This document shows, piece after piece, positions 7,136-19,580 of a stretch of DNA of 64,000 nt; position 1 is the stretch's first letter, and every line of letters begins with the position of its first letter. The stretch spans positions 386,501-450,500 of the forward strand of contig NZ_LT629705.1 in assembly GCF_900103875.1 (NCBI RefSeq), given 5' to 3'. The DNA comes from Pseudomonas arsenicoxydans (lineage in GTDB: Bacteria > Pseudomonadota > Gammaproteobacteria > Pseudomonadales > Pseudomonadaceae). Both the position numbers and the translations under genes were made by a program. Below the pieces are notes generated by a model. It did not search any database. It was not told the DNA's origin and saw only the letters and a program-made list of their open reading frames with translations.

Positions 7136-8142
7136 TCAATCGTCGCTACGCCTTGTTGTTGATAGTCCTCGGCGCGCTGTTACTGGTGTCGTGCGTGGTC
7201 TCGCTGGGCTTCGGTCCGGCGCGGGTGCCGGTGGATGTGGTGTGGCGGATCCTGCTGCAAAAAGTGCTCGGCGTCGGTGAGGTGAACTGGACCGCCGGGC
7301 AAGAGCACATCGTGTGGCTGATCCGCGTACCGCGCATGTTGCTCGGTGCGCTGGTGGGCGCCGGGCTGGCGCTGATCGGCGCGGTGCTGCAGGCGGTGAC
7401 GCGTAATCCCCTGGCCGATCCGCACCTGCTCGGGGTCACTTCCGGTGCGACCCTCGGCGCGGTGATCGTGGTGCTGCATGTCGGTGAAATCGTTGGCCTG
7501 CTGACCTTGCCGATTGCGGCGTTTATCGGCGCGTTGGCGAGCATGCTGATCGTGCTGATAATCGCCAACCGCAACGGTCGGCTGGACAGTGATCGGCTGC
7601 TGCTGTGCGGCGTGGCGGTGTCCTTCGTGATGATGGCGATCGCCAACCTGCTGCTGTTTCTCGGCGATCACAGGGCGAGTTCGGCGGTGATGTTCTGGAT
7701 GCTTGGTGGACTTGGATTGGCGCGCTGGGAACTGCTCGCCGTGCCCGCCGTCAGCGTATTGCTCGGGCTTGTGTTGTTGCTCGGCATGGCCCGGCCGTTG
7801 AATGCGTTGATGGCCGGTGAACAGACCGCCGTCACCCTCGGGCTGAATGCTCGCACCGTGCGGCTGCGGGTGTTTTTGATTGCTTCATTGATGACCGGCG
7901 TGCTGGTGTCGATCAGCGGGTCCATCGGCTTTGTCGGGCTGATGGTGCCGCACATTGCGCGGCGGTTGGTCGGGGCGGAGCATCGGCGCTTGCTGCCGGT
8001 GTGCGTGTTGATCGGCAGCATTTTCCTCGTCTGGGTCGACGTCGCCGCCCGCACCCTGATCGCCCCCGAAGACCTGCCCATCGGCGTCGCCACTGCAGCC
8101 ATCGGTGGGCTGTTTTTCATTGGCCTGATGCGGCGGCGCTGA
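7132..8142 (+). CDS. ABC transporter permease, FecCD family
   Basis: The product has 336 residues and about ten hydrophobic helices, the standard form of inner-membrane permeases of the FecCD/BtuC family. The conserved segments RVPRMLLGALVGAGLALIG and GFVGLMVPHIARRLVG (the cytoplasmic coupling loop) are present. It is the last gene of the ATPase-binding protein-permease operon and the only permease gene, so a homodimer is expected, as in BtuCD. The ATG at 7132 overlaps the preceding stop. The next 416 bp contain a REP arm and the leader of the following gene. Confidence 0.9.
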   Translation: MINRRYALLLIVLGALLLVSCVVSLGFGPARVPVDVVWRILLQKVLGVGEVNWTAGQEHIVWLIRVPRMLLGALVGAGLALIGAVLQAVTRNPLADPHLLGVTSGATLGAVIVVLHVGEIVGLLTLPIAAFIGALASMLIVLIIANRNGRLDSDRLLLCGVAVSFVMMAIANLLLFLGDHRASSAVMFWMLGGLGLARWELLAVPAVSVLLGLVLLLGMARPLNALMAGEQTAVTLGLNARTVRLRVFLIASLMTGVLVSISGSIGFVGLMVPHIARRLVGAEHRRLLPVCVLIGSIFLVWVDVAARTLIAPEDLPIGVATAAIGGLFFIGLMRRR

Positions 8143-8558
8143 TCCCGTCAGCACATTCAGAATTACTTTGCCTGATGTACCGCTATCGCGAGCAGGCTCA
8201 CTCCTACAGGGGGGTGGTGATTCTGGGGTTGTTTATGTGTGTTTATTTGAATGCAAAAAGACCGGACGTTTCCCACGACTTTTTCAGGTTGTTCGTCGGA
8301 CGTGGGCTGTCTAGTCTGGGGCTGTCACTGCACATCAGTGATCGGGTGTGAGAACCCGGCAGCCCCTGTTAATCCAACATCAGTACCACCATAATTGCCG
8401 TCGGCTTATCCGCTGCCTGCAATGCTCAATGGCGGCTGTGTGCGGGCGGACTTCGGTCCGGCCGGGTTCGGGGTTACCGGTTTCTCACTCCGCACATAGC
8501 TGCCACCCTTCTATCGTGTGAGAACGATAGGTGGTGGCCCCAATTGAGATAACCCCAA
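8143..8558. other. Gene-free stretch between permease and DUF6124-like gene
   Basis: A single REP family B arm (8181-8210, GCTATCGCGAGCAGGCTCAC) is followed by an A/T-richer part that could hold a promoter near 8220-8300, and then by the structured leader at 8343-8540. The short reading frames across it lack ribosome binding sites and codon bias. Confidence 0.6.
8343..8540 (+). promoter_or_regulatory. Candidate structured RNA leader upstream of the DUF6124-like gene
   Basis: Bases 8345-8359 (GG-GTGAGAA-CCGG core) can pair with 8477-8491 with two mismatches, closing a domain of about 145 nt. Inside it is a hairpin with a UUCG tetraloop (CGGAC TTCG GTCCG, 8447-8460). A second strong hairpin follows at 8502-8537, formed by GCCACC/GGTGGC and CTATCGT/ACGATAG around a GTGAGA loop. 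A further copy of GTGAGAA (8518-8524) lies in that loop and the start of its 3-prime arm, and could instead pair with TTCTCAC at 8482-8488. The pairings were read by eye; the ATG lies at 8559, and the ribosome binding site in between is weak. Confidence 0.5.
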
Positions 8559-8930
8559 ATGTGCAAAAAAATAGTTCCAGATCCACCCATCGACACCACC
8601 ACGCCCGAACCCGAAACATCACACGACGACAACCTGCTCCGAGACCGCGAAACCATCAACCGCGCCCTCGACTATTACCTCGATCCCGCGACCCGCTACG
8701 CGGAAAAACCCCGCCGCCCCAGCACCATGTTCATGATCGCCCCCGACAACGACACCGAAAGCCTGCTGGTCCATGCCTATGAGTCCCTGGCCTCCGCCAG
8801 CGTGATGGCCAGCGATTTCGCCAGCGACCTGATCGGCCCGCAACGCCATAAGGCGCTGGCGATCCAGCAGATCATCATGCTCGCCGAGCTGGCCGTGAAC
8901 CGTGCAGTGGACAACGTCGTCCCCACCTGA
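8559..8930 (+). CDS. DUF6124-like small protein of unknown function
   Basis: The product has 123 residues. A Pro/Thr/Glu/Asp-rich N-terminus (KIVPDPPIDTTTPEPET) is followed by an acidic-basic stretch with INRALDYYLDP and a helical C-terminus with LLVHAYESLASASVMASDF, ending AELAVNRAVDNVVPT. This is the pattern I associate with the pseudomonad families DUF6124/DUF3077, which occur in many copies per genome and have no known function. It has no signal peptide or membrane segment, so it should be cytoplasmic. The gene stands alone, with its own long leader (8343-8540), and is followed by a REP-rich gap of 400 bp. Confidence 0.7.
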   Translation: MCKKIVPDPPIDTTTPEPETSHDDNLLRDRETINRALDYYLDPATRYAEKPRRPSTMFMIAPDNDTESLLVHAYESLASASVMASDFASDLIGPQRHKALAIQQIIMLAELAVNRAVDNVVPT

Positions 8931-8946
8931 ATACACCGCAAAAAAA

Positions 8947-9037
8947 TGTGGGAGTGAGCCTGCTCGCGATGGCGGCAGCACACTCGACATCTCTGCGCCT
9001 GATACTCCGCGATCGCGAGCAGGCTCACTCCCACAGG
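8947..9037. repeat. REP family B inverted pair
   Basis: TGTGGGAGTGAGCCTGCTCG at the left end and its inverse GATCGCGAGCAGGCTCACTC at the right end are separated by about 40 bp. A further lone arm of the same family lies at 9081-9104. Confidence 0.85.
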
Positions 9038-9254
9038 GGTTTATCGTCGTCCACGGATCCCGCACCCGACACAATTCAAATGTGGGAGCGAGCTTGCTCG
9101 CGAAGACGGTGGCACAAGGGTTGATGCTGACTGATATTCCTGCGCCCTGTTCTGGCGCAGGCCACCGCACCAATGCCTCATGCACGTCCCTTCCTGGTGC
9201 ACCGCATGCGCGCGCAGCCGCTCTAATACGACGTTTCCTTGCCTGCACCCGACT

Positions 9255-9271
9255 AGGCACAGCCCTTGCAA
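9255..9271 (+). promoter_or_regulatory. Sigma54-type promoter of urtA (candidate)
   Basis: The sequence AGGCACAGCCCTTGCAA has GG at 9256-9257 and GC at 9268-9269, exactly 10 bp apart, matching the -24/-12 rule (TGGCAC-N5-TTGCW). Transcription would start near 9281, about 55 bp before the urtA ATG. GCAC/GGTGC half sites at about 9166-9205 might belong to an NtrC enhancer but are not spaced as the consensus requires. Confidence 0.6.
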
Positions 9272-9336
9272 AACACCCTTCAGTAGTCCGCATCTGCCAA
9301 CCAAGAAAAAATTCTAACGTTCATGGAGATCGCACA

Positions 9337-17879: not shown

Positions 17880-19580
17880 ATGAAAATTTCCCGTCAAGCC
17901 TACGCCGACATGTTCGGCCCCACCGTCGGTGACAAGGTCCGTCTGGCCGATACCGAGCTGTGGATCGAAGTGGAAAAAGACTTCACCACCTATGGCGAAG
18001 AAGTGAAATTCGGCGGCGGTAAAGTCATCCGCGACGGTCAGGGCCAAAGCCAGTTACTGGCGGCCGAAGTCGTCGACACCCTGATCACCAACGCGCTGAT
18101 CGTCGACCACTGGGGCATCGTCAAAGCCGACGTCGGCCTCAAGGACGGCCGCATCGCCGCGATCGGCAAGGCCGGCAACCCGGACATCCAGCCGAACGTC
18201 ACGATCGCCGTCGGCGCCAGCACCGAAGTGATCGCCGGCGAAGGCATGATCCTCACCGCCGGTGGCATCGACACGCACATCCATTTCATCTGCCCGCAAC
18301 AGATCGAAGAAGCCCTGATGAGCGGCGTCACCACCATGATCGGTGGCGGCACCGGCCCTGCCACCGGCACCAACGCCACCACCTGCACCTCTGGGCCGTG
18401 GCACCTGGCGCGCATGCTTCAAGCCGCCGACGCGTTCCCGATGAACATCGGTTTCACCGGCAAGGGCAACGCGAGCCTGCCGGAACCGCTGATCGAACAG
18501 GTCAAGGCCGGCGCCATCGGCCTGAAGTTGCACGAAGACTGGGGCACCACGCCCGCGAGCATCGACAACTGCCTGACAGTGGCCGACCAATACGACGTCC
18601 AGGTCGCCATCCACACCGACACCCTCAACGAATCCGGTTTCGTCGAAACCACCCTCGCCGCCTTCAAGGGCCGCACGATTCACACCTACCACACCGAAGG
18701 TGCGGGCGGCGGTCACGCGCCGGACATCATCAAGGCCTGTGGCTTTGCCAACGTGTTGCCGAGTTCGACCAACCCGACTCGACCGTTCACCCGCAACACC
18801 ATCGACGAACACCTCGACATGCTGATGGTCTGCCACCACCTGGACCCAAGCATTGCCGAAGACGTGGCCTTCGCCGAAAGCCGCATCCGCCGCGAAACCA
18901 TCGCCGCCGAAGACATCCTCCACGACCTCGGCGCGTTCTCGATGATCAGCTCCGACAGCCAGGCCATGGGCCGGGTCGGCGAAGTGATCACCCGCACATG
19001 GCAGACCGCCGACAAGATGAAAAAACAGCGCGGCGCGCTGCCGGGAGATGGCGAAGGCAACGACAACTTCCGCGCCAAACGCTACATCGCCAAATACACC
19101 ATCAACCCGGCGATCACCCACGGCATCAGCCACGAAGTGGGCTCGGTCGAAGTGGGTAAATGGGCTGATCTGGTGCTCTGGCGGCCGGCGTTCTTCGGGG
19201 TCAAACCGACACTGATCCTCAAGGGCGGTGCCATTGCGGCCAGCCTGATGGGTGACGCCAACGCCTCGATCCCGACGCCGCAACCGGTGCACTACCGCCC
19301 GATGTTCGCCAGTTACGGCGGTTCGCTGCACGCCACCAGCCTGACCTTTATCAGTCAGGCGGCGCAGGCGGCGGGATTGCCCGAAGCGTTGGGTCTGAAA
19401 AAGAAAATCGCAGTGGTCAAAGGCTGTCGCGAGGTGCAGAAAAGCGATCTGATTCACAACGATTACCTGCCGAAGATTGACGTTGATCCGCAGACGTATC
19501 AGGTCAAGGCTGACGGTGTCTTGCTCTGGTGCGAGCCGGCGGATGTGTTGCCGATGGCCCAGCGCTACTTCCTCTTTTGA
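17880..19580 (+). CDS. ureC: Urease subunit alpha (catalytic)
   Basis: The product has 566 residues, the family length. The ATG at 17880 gives the conserved start [20 protein letters not shown]; the frame opens 5 codons earlier at a GTG, which I reject. The nickel ligands are visible: HIHFICPQQ, the carbamylated Lys in GLKLHEDWG, and His in [10 protein letters not shown] and [15 protein letters not shown]. The catalytic His is in MVCHHLD near residue 320. It hydrolyses urea in complex with UreA and UreB. It is the last gene of the block and converges with the large NEL-domain gene. Confidence 0.97.

Follow-up and report, generated by a model that had tools for sequence, protein, structure and literature searches.

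The leader of a small-protein gene on the chromosome of Pseudomonas arsenicoxydans is, judged by its sequence, a C4-type (immI-like) control unit built around a named RNA. We analysed a stretch of 64,000 nucleotides (the window), in which this leader stands directly before a DUF6124 gene. We consider it likely, with a probability of roughly 0.78, that the unit silences its own downstream gene and that its C4 antisense RNA is probably processed by RNase P. The RNA family itself is known; the new part is a many-copy, self-specific C4 array on Pseudomonas chromosomes. The sequence evidence for this lies in the parts of the unit, the covariation of the RNA, the self-specificity of its recognition segments, the position of the b2 target, the recurrence of the unit and its absence from the same site in relatives. 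The parts at the window locus are as follows.

8311-8362, plus strand: RF03163, 'a1, b1 targets of C4 antisense RNA' (Rfam, 51.4 bits against a cut-off of 46.7)
8343-8358, plus strand: a1 hairpin, with GTGAGAA (8348-8354) in or beside the loop (RF03163 alignment and fold)
8361-8366, plus strand: b1, AGCCCC (computed duplex with GGGGTT of b')
8425-8510, plus strand: C4 antisense RNA, RF01695 (Rfam, 75.5 bits against a cut-off of 45, full length, model positions 1-87 of 87)
8430-8446 with 8489-8505, plus strand: C4 helix P1 (RF01695 alignment)
8447-8451 with 8456-8460, plus strand: C4 helix P2 (RF01695 alignment)
8461-8465 with 8477-8481, plus strand: C4 helix P3 (RF01695 alignment)
8470-8476, plus strand: b', GGGGTTA, in the P3 loop; complement of b2
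8482-8488, plus strand: a', TTCTCAC, the unpaired stretch that joins P3 to P1 when the C4 is folded
8511-8530, plus strand: a2 hairpin, with GTGAGAA (8518-8524) in or beside the loop (predicted fold)
8550-8556, plus strand: b2, TAACCCC, at −9 to −3 of the start codon
8559-8930, plus strand: DUF6124 gene, 123 amino acids, ATG at 8559 (PF19619, 85.3 bits, residues 57-119)

In this arrangement the a' and b' segments of the C4 are complementary both to a1/b1 upstream and to a2/b2 downstream. The initial annotation had located the two copies of GTGAGAA and the intervening TTCTCAC correctly; they make up the a1/a'/a2 triad. The UUCG hairpin that it saw at 8447-8460 is C4 helix P2, the hairpin it drew downstream is present in the predicted leader fold, and its assignment of the gene as DUF6124-like agrees with the Pfam match. 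It also placed the target near the start codon, which is where b2 lies; the pairing of b' with b2 itself, which stops two bases 5' of the ATG, was absent from its account.

The initial annotation knew of no named riboswitch for this gene family. With 8425-8510 identified as C4 and 8311-8362 as its a1/b1 element, the leader already has names, and it is not a ligand switch. No known riboswitch family was found at the Rfam cut-off in the window, nor at an E-value of 1 in 8200-8700; the only families at cut-off in the window were the C4 pair and the 5' ureB sRNA. The last of these (RF02514) is a full-length match of 125.9 bits on the minus strand at 18026-18312. A ligand-binding riboswitch would have the structured 5' leader and the two alternative pairings seen here, but an antisense family matches here over its full length, and the variable parts include the pairing segments, with no invariant pocket seen; we regard such a riboswitch as extremely improbable. 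A consensus scan of 7800-9300 detected no promoter upstream of a1; its sole promoter-like site, at 8544-8572, lies downstream of the leader, with 0.4 such sites expected by chance.

The unit is one of many. The genome of P. arsenicoxydans (6.50 Mb, one contig) contains 34 C4 matches over the cut-off and 37 above 40 bits, mostly before DUF6124 genes, which fits the proposed recurrence before a multi-copy family of small proteins. The a1/b1 element (RF03163) has 11 matches over the cut-off and 35 at E below 2e-4. There are 29 DUF6124 matches and six DUF3077 matches; two of the latter are the halves of a single split gene, and another overlaps a DUF6124 match.

The initial annotation had named covariation as the check on its stems, and we found it across the 34 paralogous C4 sequences of this genome that were aligned, with the units at 331268, 4981887 and 6346589 and a 20.7-bit match left out. 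In this alignment 95.4% of the cells of the three-helix structure are paired, and 15 of 27 base pairs show changes on both sides, compared with a mean of 9.1 after shuffling. The covariation score is 0.417, against 0.241 for shuffled alignments and at most 0.146 when the structure is slid along the sequence. P1 is followed by an acceptor-like CCACC in 30 of the 34 sequences and by CCTCC in the other four; the CCACC appears to resemble an acceptor end.

The geometry around the C4 is likewise repeated. An a1 hairpin stem of at least 4 bp is present in 34 of the 35 units in which a1 was found (mean 5.4 bp, compared with 3.2 in shuffled flanks), and an a2 stem of that length in 26 of 36 (mean 4.4, again compared with 3.2). 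In 31 of the 32 units that have a b2 match the match overlaps positions −20 to −1 of the start, and in 20 units it includes a Shine-Dalgarno-like core; four of the 36 units have none. The a' segment occupies the equivalent position of the C4 in other units too. Within the C4, few parts vary as much as the recognition segments a' and b': mean pairwise identity is 0.32 for the b' loop, 0.47 for a', 0.48 for the 5' tail and 0.50 for P2, compared with 0.78 for P1 and 0.84 for P3.

Variable as they are, the recognition segments fit the targets of their own units. The fit was scored as the length of the longest perfect complement that a' and b' form with the target of their own unit, and likewise with the targets of all other units. 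Of 38 C4 matches in the genome, the 20.7-bit one was dropped and the truncated one at 4981887 omitted, giving a set of 36 units. For the downstream a2/b2 the match averages 14.2 nt to the own target and 8.3 nt to others, a difference reached in none of 10,000 permutations. The own target is strictly the best in 31 of the 36 units and best or tied in 33, and the three exceptions (4346484+, 331268− and 4765589−) match another unit's target better than their own. The upstream a1/b1 follows the same pattern less sharply: 13.5 against 9.7 nt, a difference that no permutation out of 10,000 attained, with only 26 of the 36 units matching no foreign a1/b1 better than their own. The 5' half of the C4, used as a control, showed no preference for the own target, with 7,038, 6,281 and 7,512 of 10,000 permutations reaching the observed value. 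The 36 units carry 27 distinct a' segments and 36 distinct a'/b' combinations.

A second genome (G010) has 35 C4s, 30 of which were tested as loci. The own match averages 14.9 nt compared with 8.6 nt to others (0 of 10,000 permutations) and is strictly the best in 21 units and best or tied in 27. These 30 units hold 29 a'/b' combinations, none of them common to the P. arsenicoxydans genome. Two neighbouring units, at G010:C1:741014 and 741736 (L336 and L344), share the same a' and b' and are the only exact repeat among the 30. Among loci from named species, 74 of 80 gave 76 C4 matches; without the weak L068, 75 remained, with 44 distinct antisense segments among them. For these the own match was 14.75 nt against 9.67 nt, a difference reached in 0 of 5,000 permutations. 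Because related loci share specificities in this mixed-species set, the own target was strictly the best for only 12 of the 44 segments, and counting ties for 29. Among the closest relatives of the window unit (L046-L052), a' and a2 are constant and b' and b2 change together. Given their differing a'/b' combinations, the approximately 35 units of the chromosome appear to be nearly independent locks.

The comparative evidence, that is covariation and recognition segments that fit their own targets, is in our reading of the sequences decisive; thermodynamic folding adds a second conformation. The long-range stem that the initial annotation proposed between 8348-8366 and 8470-8488 has 17 pairs in three runs (7+4+6) and a duplex energy of −29.0 kcal/mol, and its two mutually exclusive pairings hold, with the two GTGAGAA copies as a1 and a2 and TTCTCAC as a'. 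The folding energy of the leader is −90.8, against a shuffle mean of −74.9 (z −3.45), and is better than in 200 of 200 dinucleotide shuffles. On its own the longest exact inverted-repeat arm, 9 nt, is weak evidence, since 29 of 500 simple shuffles produced one at least as long. For the window leader the predicted energy minimum corresponds to the long-range fold and not to that of C4. Across the 36 units, the predicted minimum keeps P1 in 17 and has fewer than 12 of its 17 pairs in 19. Bistability is plausible because the long-range fold is the window minimum and P1 is not kept in 19 of the 36 minima.

These folds would also be expected of a cis-acting conformational switch alone, similar to IsrK, in which exchange between the long-range and C4 folds would alter how accessible the start codon is, without need of a free antisense RNA. 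This reading is closest to that of the initial annotation, and it is compatible with the antisense explanation. The preference of a1/b1 for its own C4 agrees with it, and the phage Gifsy-1 offers a precedent: the leader of isrK-orf45-anrP switches between inactive and active structures, as compensatory mutants support, and the short IsrK is a trans activator (PMC4825925). The window leader resembles IsrK (RF01394) in having two folds that would control translation of a small open reading frame and an a1/b1-like 5' region, and an isrK match covers a1/b1, but at 17.1 bits and E 0.24 it falls below the cut-off of 50 bits. A terminator after the isrK segment gives the short trans RNA; in contrast, a consensus scan found no terminator-like site on the plus strand between 8343 and 8425, that is between a1/b1 and the C4, and the cargo differs. 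A switch acting in cis alone has no need of an RNA-family fold with strong covariation or of an acceptor-like 3' end, and we consider it unlikely. Of the earlier proposal of a conformational switch, the predicted minimum and the plausible bistability stand; the antisense RNA is better supported as the working part.

The C4 precedes more than one kind of gene. In the 36 units the gene after the C4 belongs to DUF6124 in 24 cases, to DUF3077 in two, to the antirepressor-type Bro-N family in three and to others in seven, one of which is a C4 without a recognisable gene. The one Bro-N protein compared with PHROGs matches 'anti-repressor Ant' (45.2 bits). Two Bro-N genes behind C4s, at G000:C1:1930665 and 6346589 (L031 and L044), start with a DUF6124-type N-terminus and are apparent chimeras, which indicates that cargo has been exchanged.

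Conversely, a preceding C4 is missing from five of the 29 DUF6124 matches. DUF6124 or DUF3077 genes at G000:C1:82575, 198012, 5450879 and 754195 (L022, L023, L040 and L026) have an a1/b1 match but no C4. Targeting of these four orphans in trans by resident C4s was considered and rejected: their best resident matches are 11, 12, 11 and 14 nt, within the background set by the best non-self matches of intact targets (mean 11.9 nt, range 10-15), and give no support for it. The unit at 330691 has beside it, at G000:C1:331268-331352, a C4 that looks intact but has no gene that we could recognise. Other broken units are the truncated C4 at 4981887 and the split DUF3077 gene at 754195. Such broken units, among them the gene-less C4 and the genes without C4, are what decaying prophage remnants without present function would leave, and C4 is a phage RNA whose type here is also found on viral contigs. 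Yet compensatory change keeps a' and b' matched to their own targets in nearly all units, as selection would, and a functionless set of remnants is very improbable.

Beyond this genome, the antisense unit is common in Pseudomonas. Of 80 DUF6124 loci in other Pseudomonas records two lie at contig edges; among the remaining 78, 73 have a strong C4, one a weak C4 (L068, 37.1 bits) and four none, and the leader is in this sense conserved upstream of other family members, as the initial annotation would have it. C4 was found in 137 and DUF6124 in 118 of 149 sampled genomes of the genus, where the per-genome counts, taken from the best 27 C4 and best 38 DUF6124 candidates, are lower bounds. In a class-wide sample C4 occurs in 7 of 185 genomes, with at least 22 copies in the P. 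arsenicoxydans genome and one to three in each of the other six.

Going by their protein sequences, we take the neighbours of the window unit to be an FecCD-type permease gene and an UrtA-type gene. We compared this site by searching the UrtA protein against 79 genomes of the genus and taking the best 30 of the 79, our own included. In 14 of these 30 loci the end of fecCD is within reach: two have the unit (our own and G049) and 12 have no C4 there. The fecCD-urtA spacing is about 200 nt in L141 and L142, compared with about 1.2 kb in the window. The unit is present with both neighbours in the named strains L047 and L049. Since 12 of the 14 comparable relatives lack the unit at this site, either it was acquired here or, as a less simple account, it has been lost repeatedly. 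Between fecCD and urtA, L049, L147 and L149 hold a small gene in which, read by eye from the DNA, SFPD-type motifs recur. REP-like palindromes at 8187-8210 and 8948-9100 bracket the window unit, and similar repeats fill the same intergenic region of several relatives without the unit. REP cores occur at 1.4 per kb in the flanks of 20 units, compared with 0.5 per kb in the window; only 15 of the 40 flanks have one.

The same type of C4 is also found on viral contigs, before a small open reading frame of about 52 amino acids, DUF3077-type genes and others including DUF6124. The 52-residue proteins (MTALIPSKIRALAHRRM...) lie directly behind the C4 on contigs such as L224, L170 and L183, and the one that we compared with PHROGs had no match. 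Two or more C4s per stretch are seen on L166, L174 and L179. A search with a single DUF6124 protein found it in one of 50,697 phage records, none of 72,556 plasmid records and one viral contig. The phage record is L156 (EU982300.1), the only one with a DUF6124 relative, which lies at the record edge beside prtR with a C4 of 90.6 bits in front. An alignment search recovered 85 viral-contig stretches, many near contig ends and some interior, which speaks against a strictly chromosomal DUF6124 family; we therefore make no claim that DUF6124 is absent from phages. Of these stretches 80 were kept as loci and 79 of them have a C4-model match; 84 of 87 matches were used, 72 of them distinct by target.

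The resident C4s might accordingly form an antisense bank against incoming phages, hitting phage C4-type messages in trans, an idea raised for Acinetobacter in PMC5320573. Some of them do equal the phage's own C4 on 12 of 63 phage-type targets in the P. arsenicoxydans genome and on 18 of 63 in G010. However, over the 63 targets the best match averages 12.38, compared with 12.30 when re-paired, in the former and 12.68 compared with 12.57 in the latter, and for nine DUF6124-type targets from viral contigs the P. arsenicoxydans genome gives 11.44 against 11.50. The exception, one of four comparisons, is G010 against these nine targets (13.33 compared with 12.53, about 2 s.d. above the null). With no excess over re-paired combinations for the phage-type targets, and with units that match their own targets, such a bank is improbable.

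An AlphaFold2 model of the window DUF6124 protein has a confident C-terminal helical hairpin (helices at residues 66-90 and 94-118), with a mean pLDDT of 76.8 and pTM of 0.48 over the whole chain. The sequence had no match in PDB, PHROGs or PADLOC and in NCBIfam only a sub-threshold one (13.7 against 181 bits), and a fold search with the model against PDB and BFVD yielded nothing at E 0.001 or lower. Comparison of DUF6124 with DUF3077 by hhalign (probability 31%, E 5e-4) is no more than suggestive of homology between the two families.

For the antisense unit we propose the following mechanism. A single transcript, from a promoter assumed to lie upstream of a1, would carry a1/b1, the C4, the a2/b2 target and the DUF6124 gene. 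The C4 would fold into its three-helix RNA and probably be cut out, with RNase P making the 5' end. The a' segment would dock on the loop of the a2 hairpin and the b' loop would pair with b2 beside the start codon, blocking translation, so that the protein would be silent in a cell already making that C4. It would be made mainly where that C4 is missing or titrated away, as on entry of the unit into a cell that lacks it. Upstream, a1/b1 would compete with a2/b2 for the same antisense segments, and since it could unfold the C4 in the uncut transcript, the leader would be bistable. We expect both modes, antisense action and a1/b1 as competitor of a2/b2. Processing by RNase P to an RNA of about 77 nt that acts in trans is a hallmark of the C4 family.

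In the phages P1 and P7 the action of C4 is described, and the RNA is cut out by RNase P there and apparently also in Acinetobacter (PMC5320573). The window unit shares with the P1/P7 immI operon (c4-icd-ant) the RNA family, the fold, a1/b1 upstream, a2/b2 downstream, b2 at the translation start and a small gene directly downstream (PMC5320573, PMC8198154). Unlike the phage operon it is chromosomal and outside a prophage at its locus, it has DUF6124 and not icd-ant as cargo, and it is one of about 35 copies with different specificities in a Pseudomonas chromosome. An immI operon is defined by a C4 that controls an antirepressor gene; at the window the gene is of another family, and Bro-N genes follow the C4 in 3 of the 36 units. 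The Group 1 C4-like sRNAs of Acinetobacter baumannii (21 in AB5075) are likewise many C4-type copies with variable a', but each Pseudomonas unit has its own a1/b1, a2/b2 and adjoining small gene, whereas targets were not identified in the portions of the Acinetobacter report available to us (PMC5320573). The predicted antisense block of a small protein and the many copies also recall type I toxin-antitoxin systems, with the difference that the C4 lies on the plus strand, the same as its target gene, and not on the opposite one.

C4 in Pseudomonadales was predicted by Weinberg et al. 2010, according to PMC5320573. A many-copy DUF6124-C4 family is not described in the accessible text of the mostly open-access literature searched, including PMC2864571, PMC12197685, PMC8546580 and PMC12189769, and a text search found no C4 terms in PMC11472050 or PMC12802169. 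DUF3077 is named in that literature and DUF6124 is not.

Tentatively, and at somewhat less than even odds, the approximately 35 orthogonal antisense-locked cassettes may behave as heteroimmune selfish elements, a newcomer being expressed only where it escapes recognition by every resident C4. The distinct combinations (36 in 36 units here and 29 in 30 in G010, none shared), the variability of a' and b', the absence from the same site in most relatives and the exchange of cargo, including DUF6124-type leaders fused to Bro-N, are in favour of this; on the other side, drift followed by compensating changes could produce such differences too. If it is true, new a'/b' specificities would be favoured, copies would pile up without cross-silencing, and an RNA code for self and non-self would exist outside phages. 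The DUF6124 family gains a likely mode of control. The finding also suggests that the targets of the Acinetobacter C4-like RNAs are worth seeking in cis. A phage immunity RNA has been multiplied into dozens of self-specific chromosomal copies within one genus, and the 36 natural pairs of one cell, which share a scaffold and are nearly orthogonal, make it testable how antisense and target specificity change together without crosstalk.
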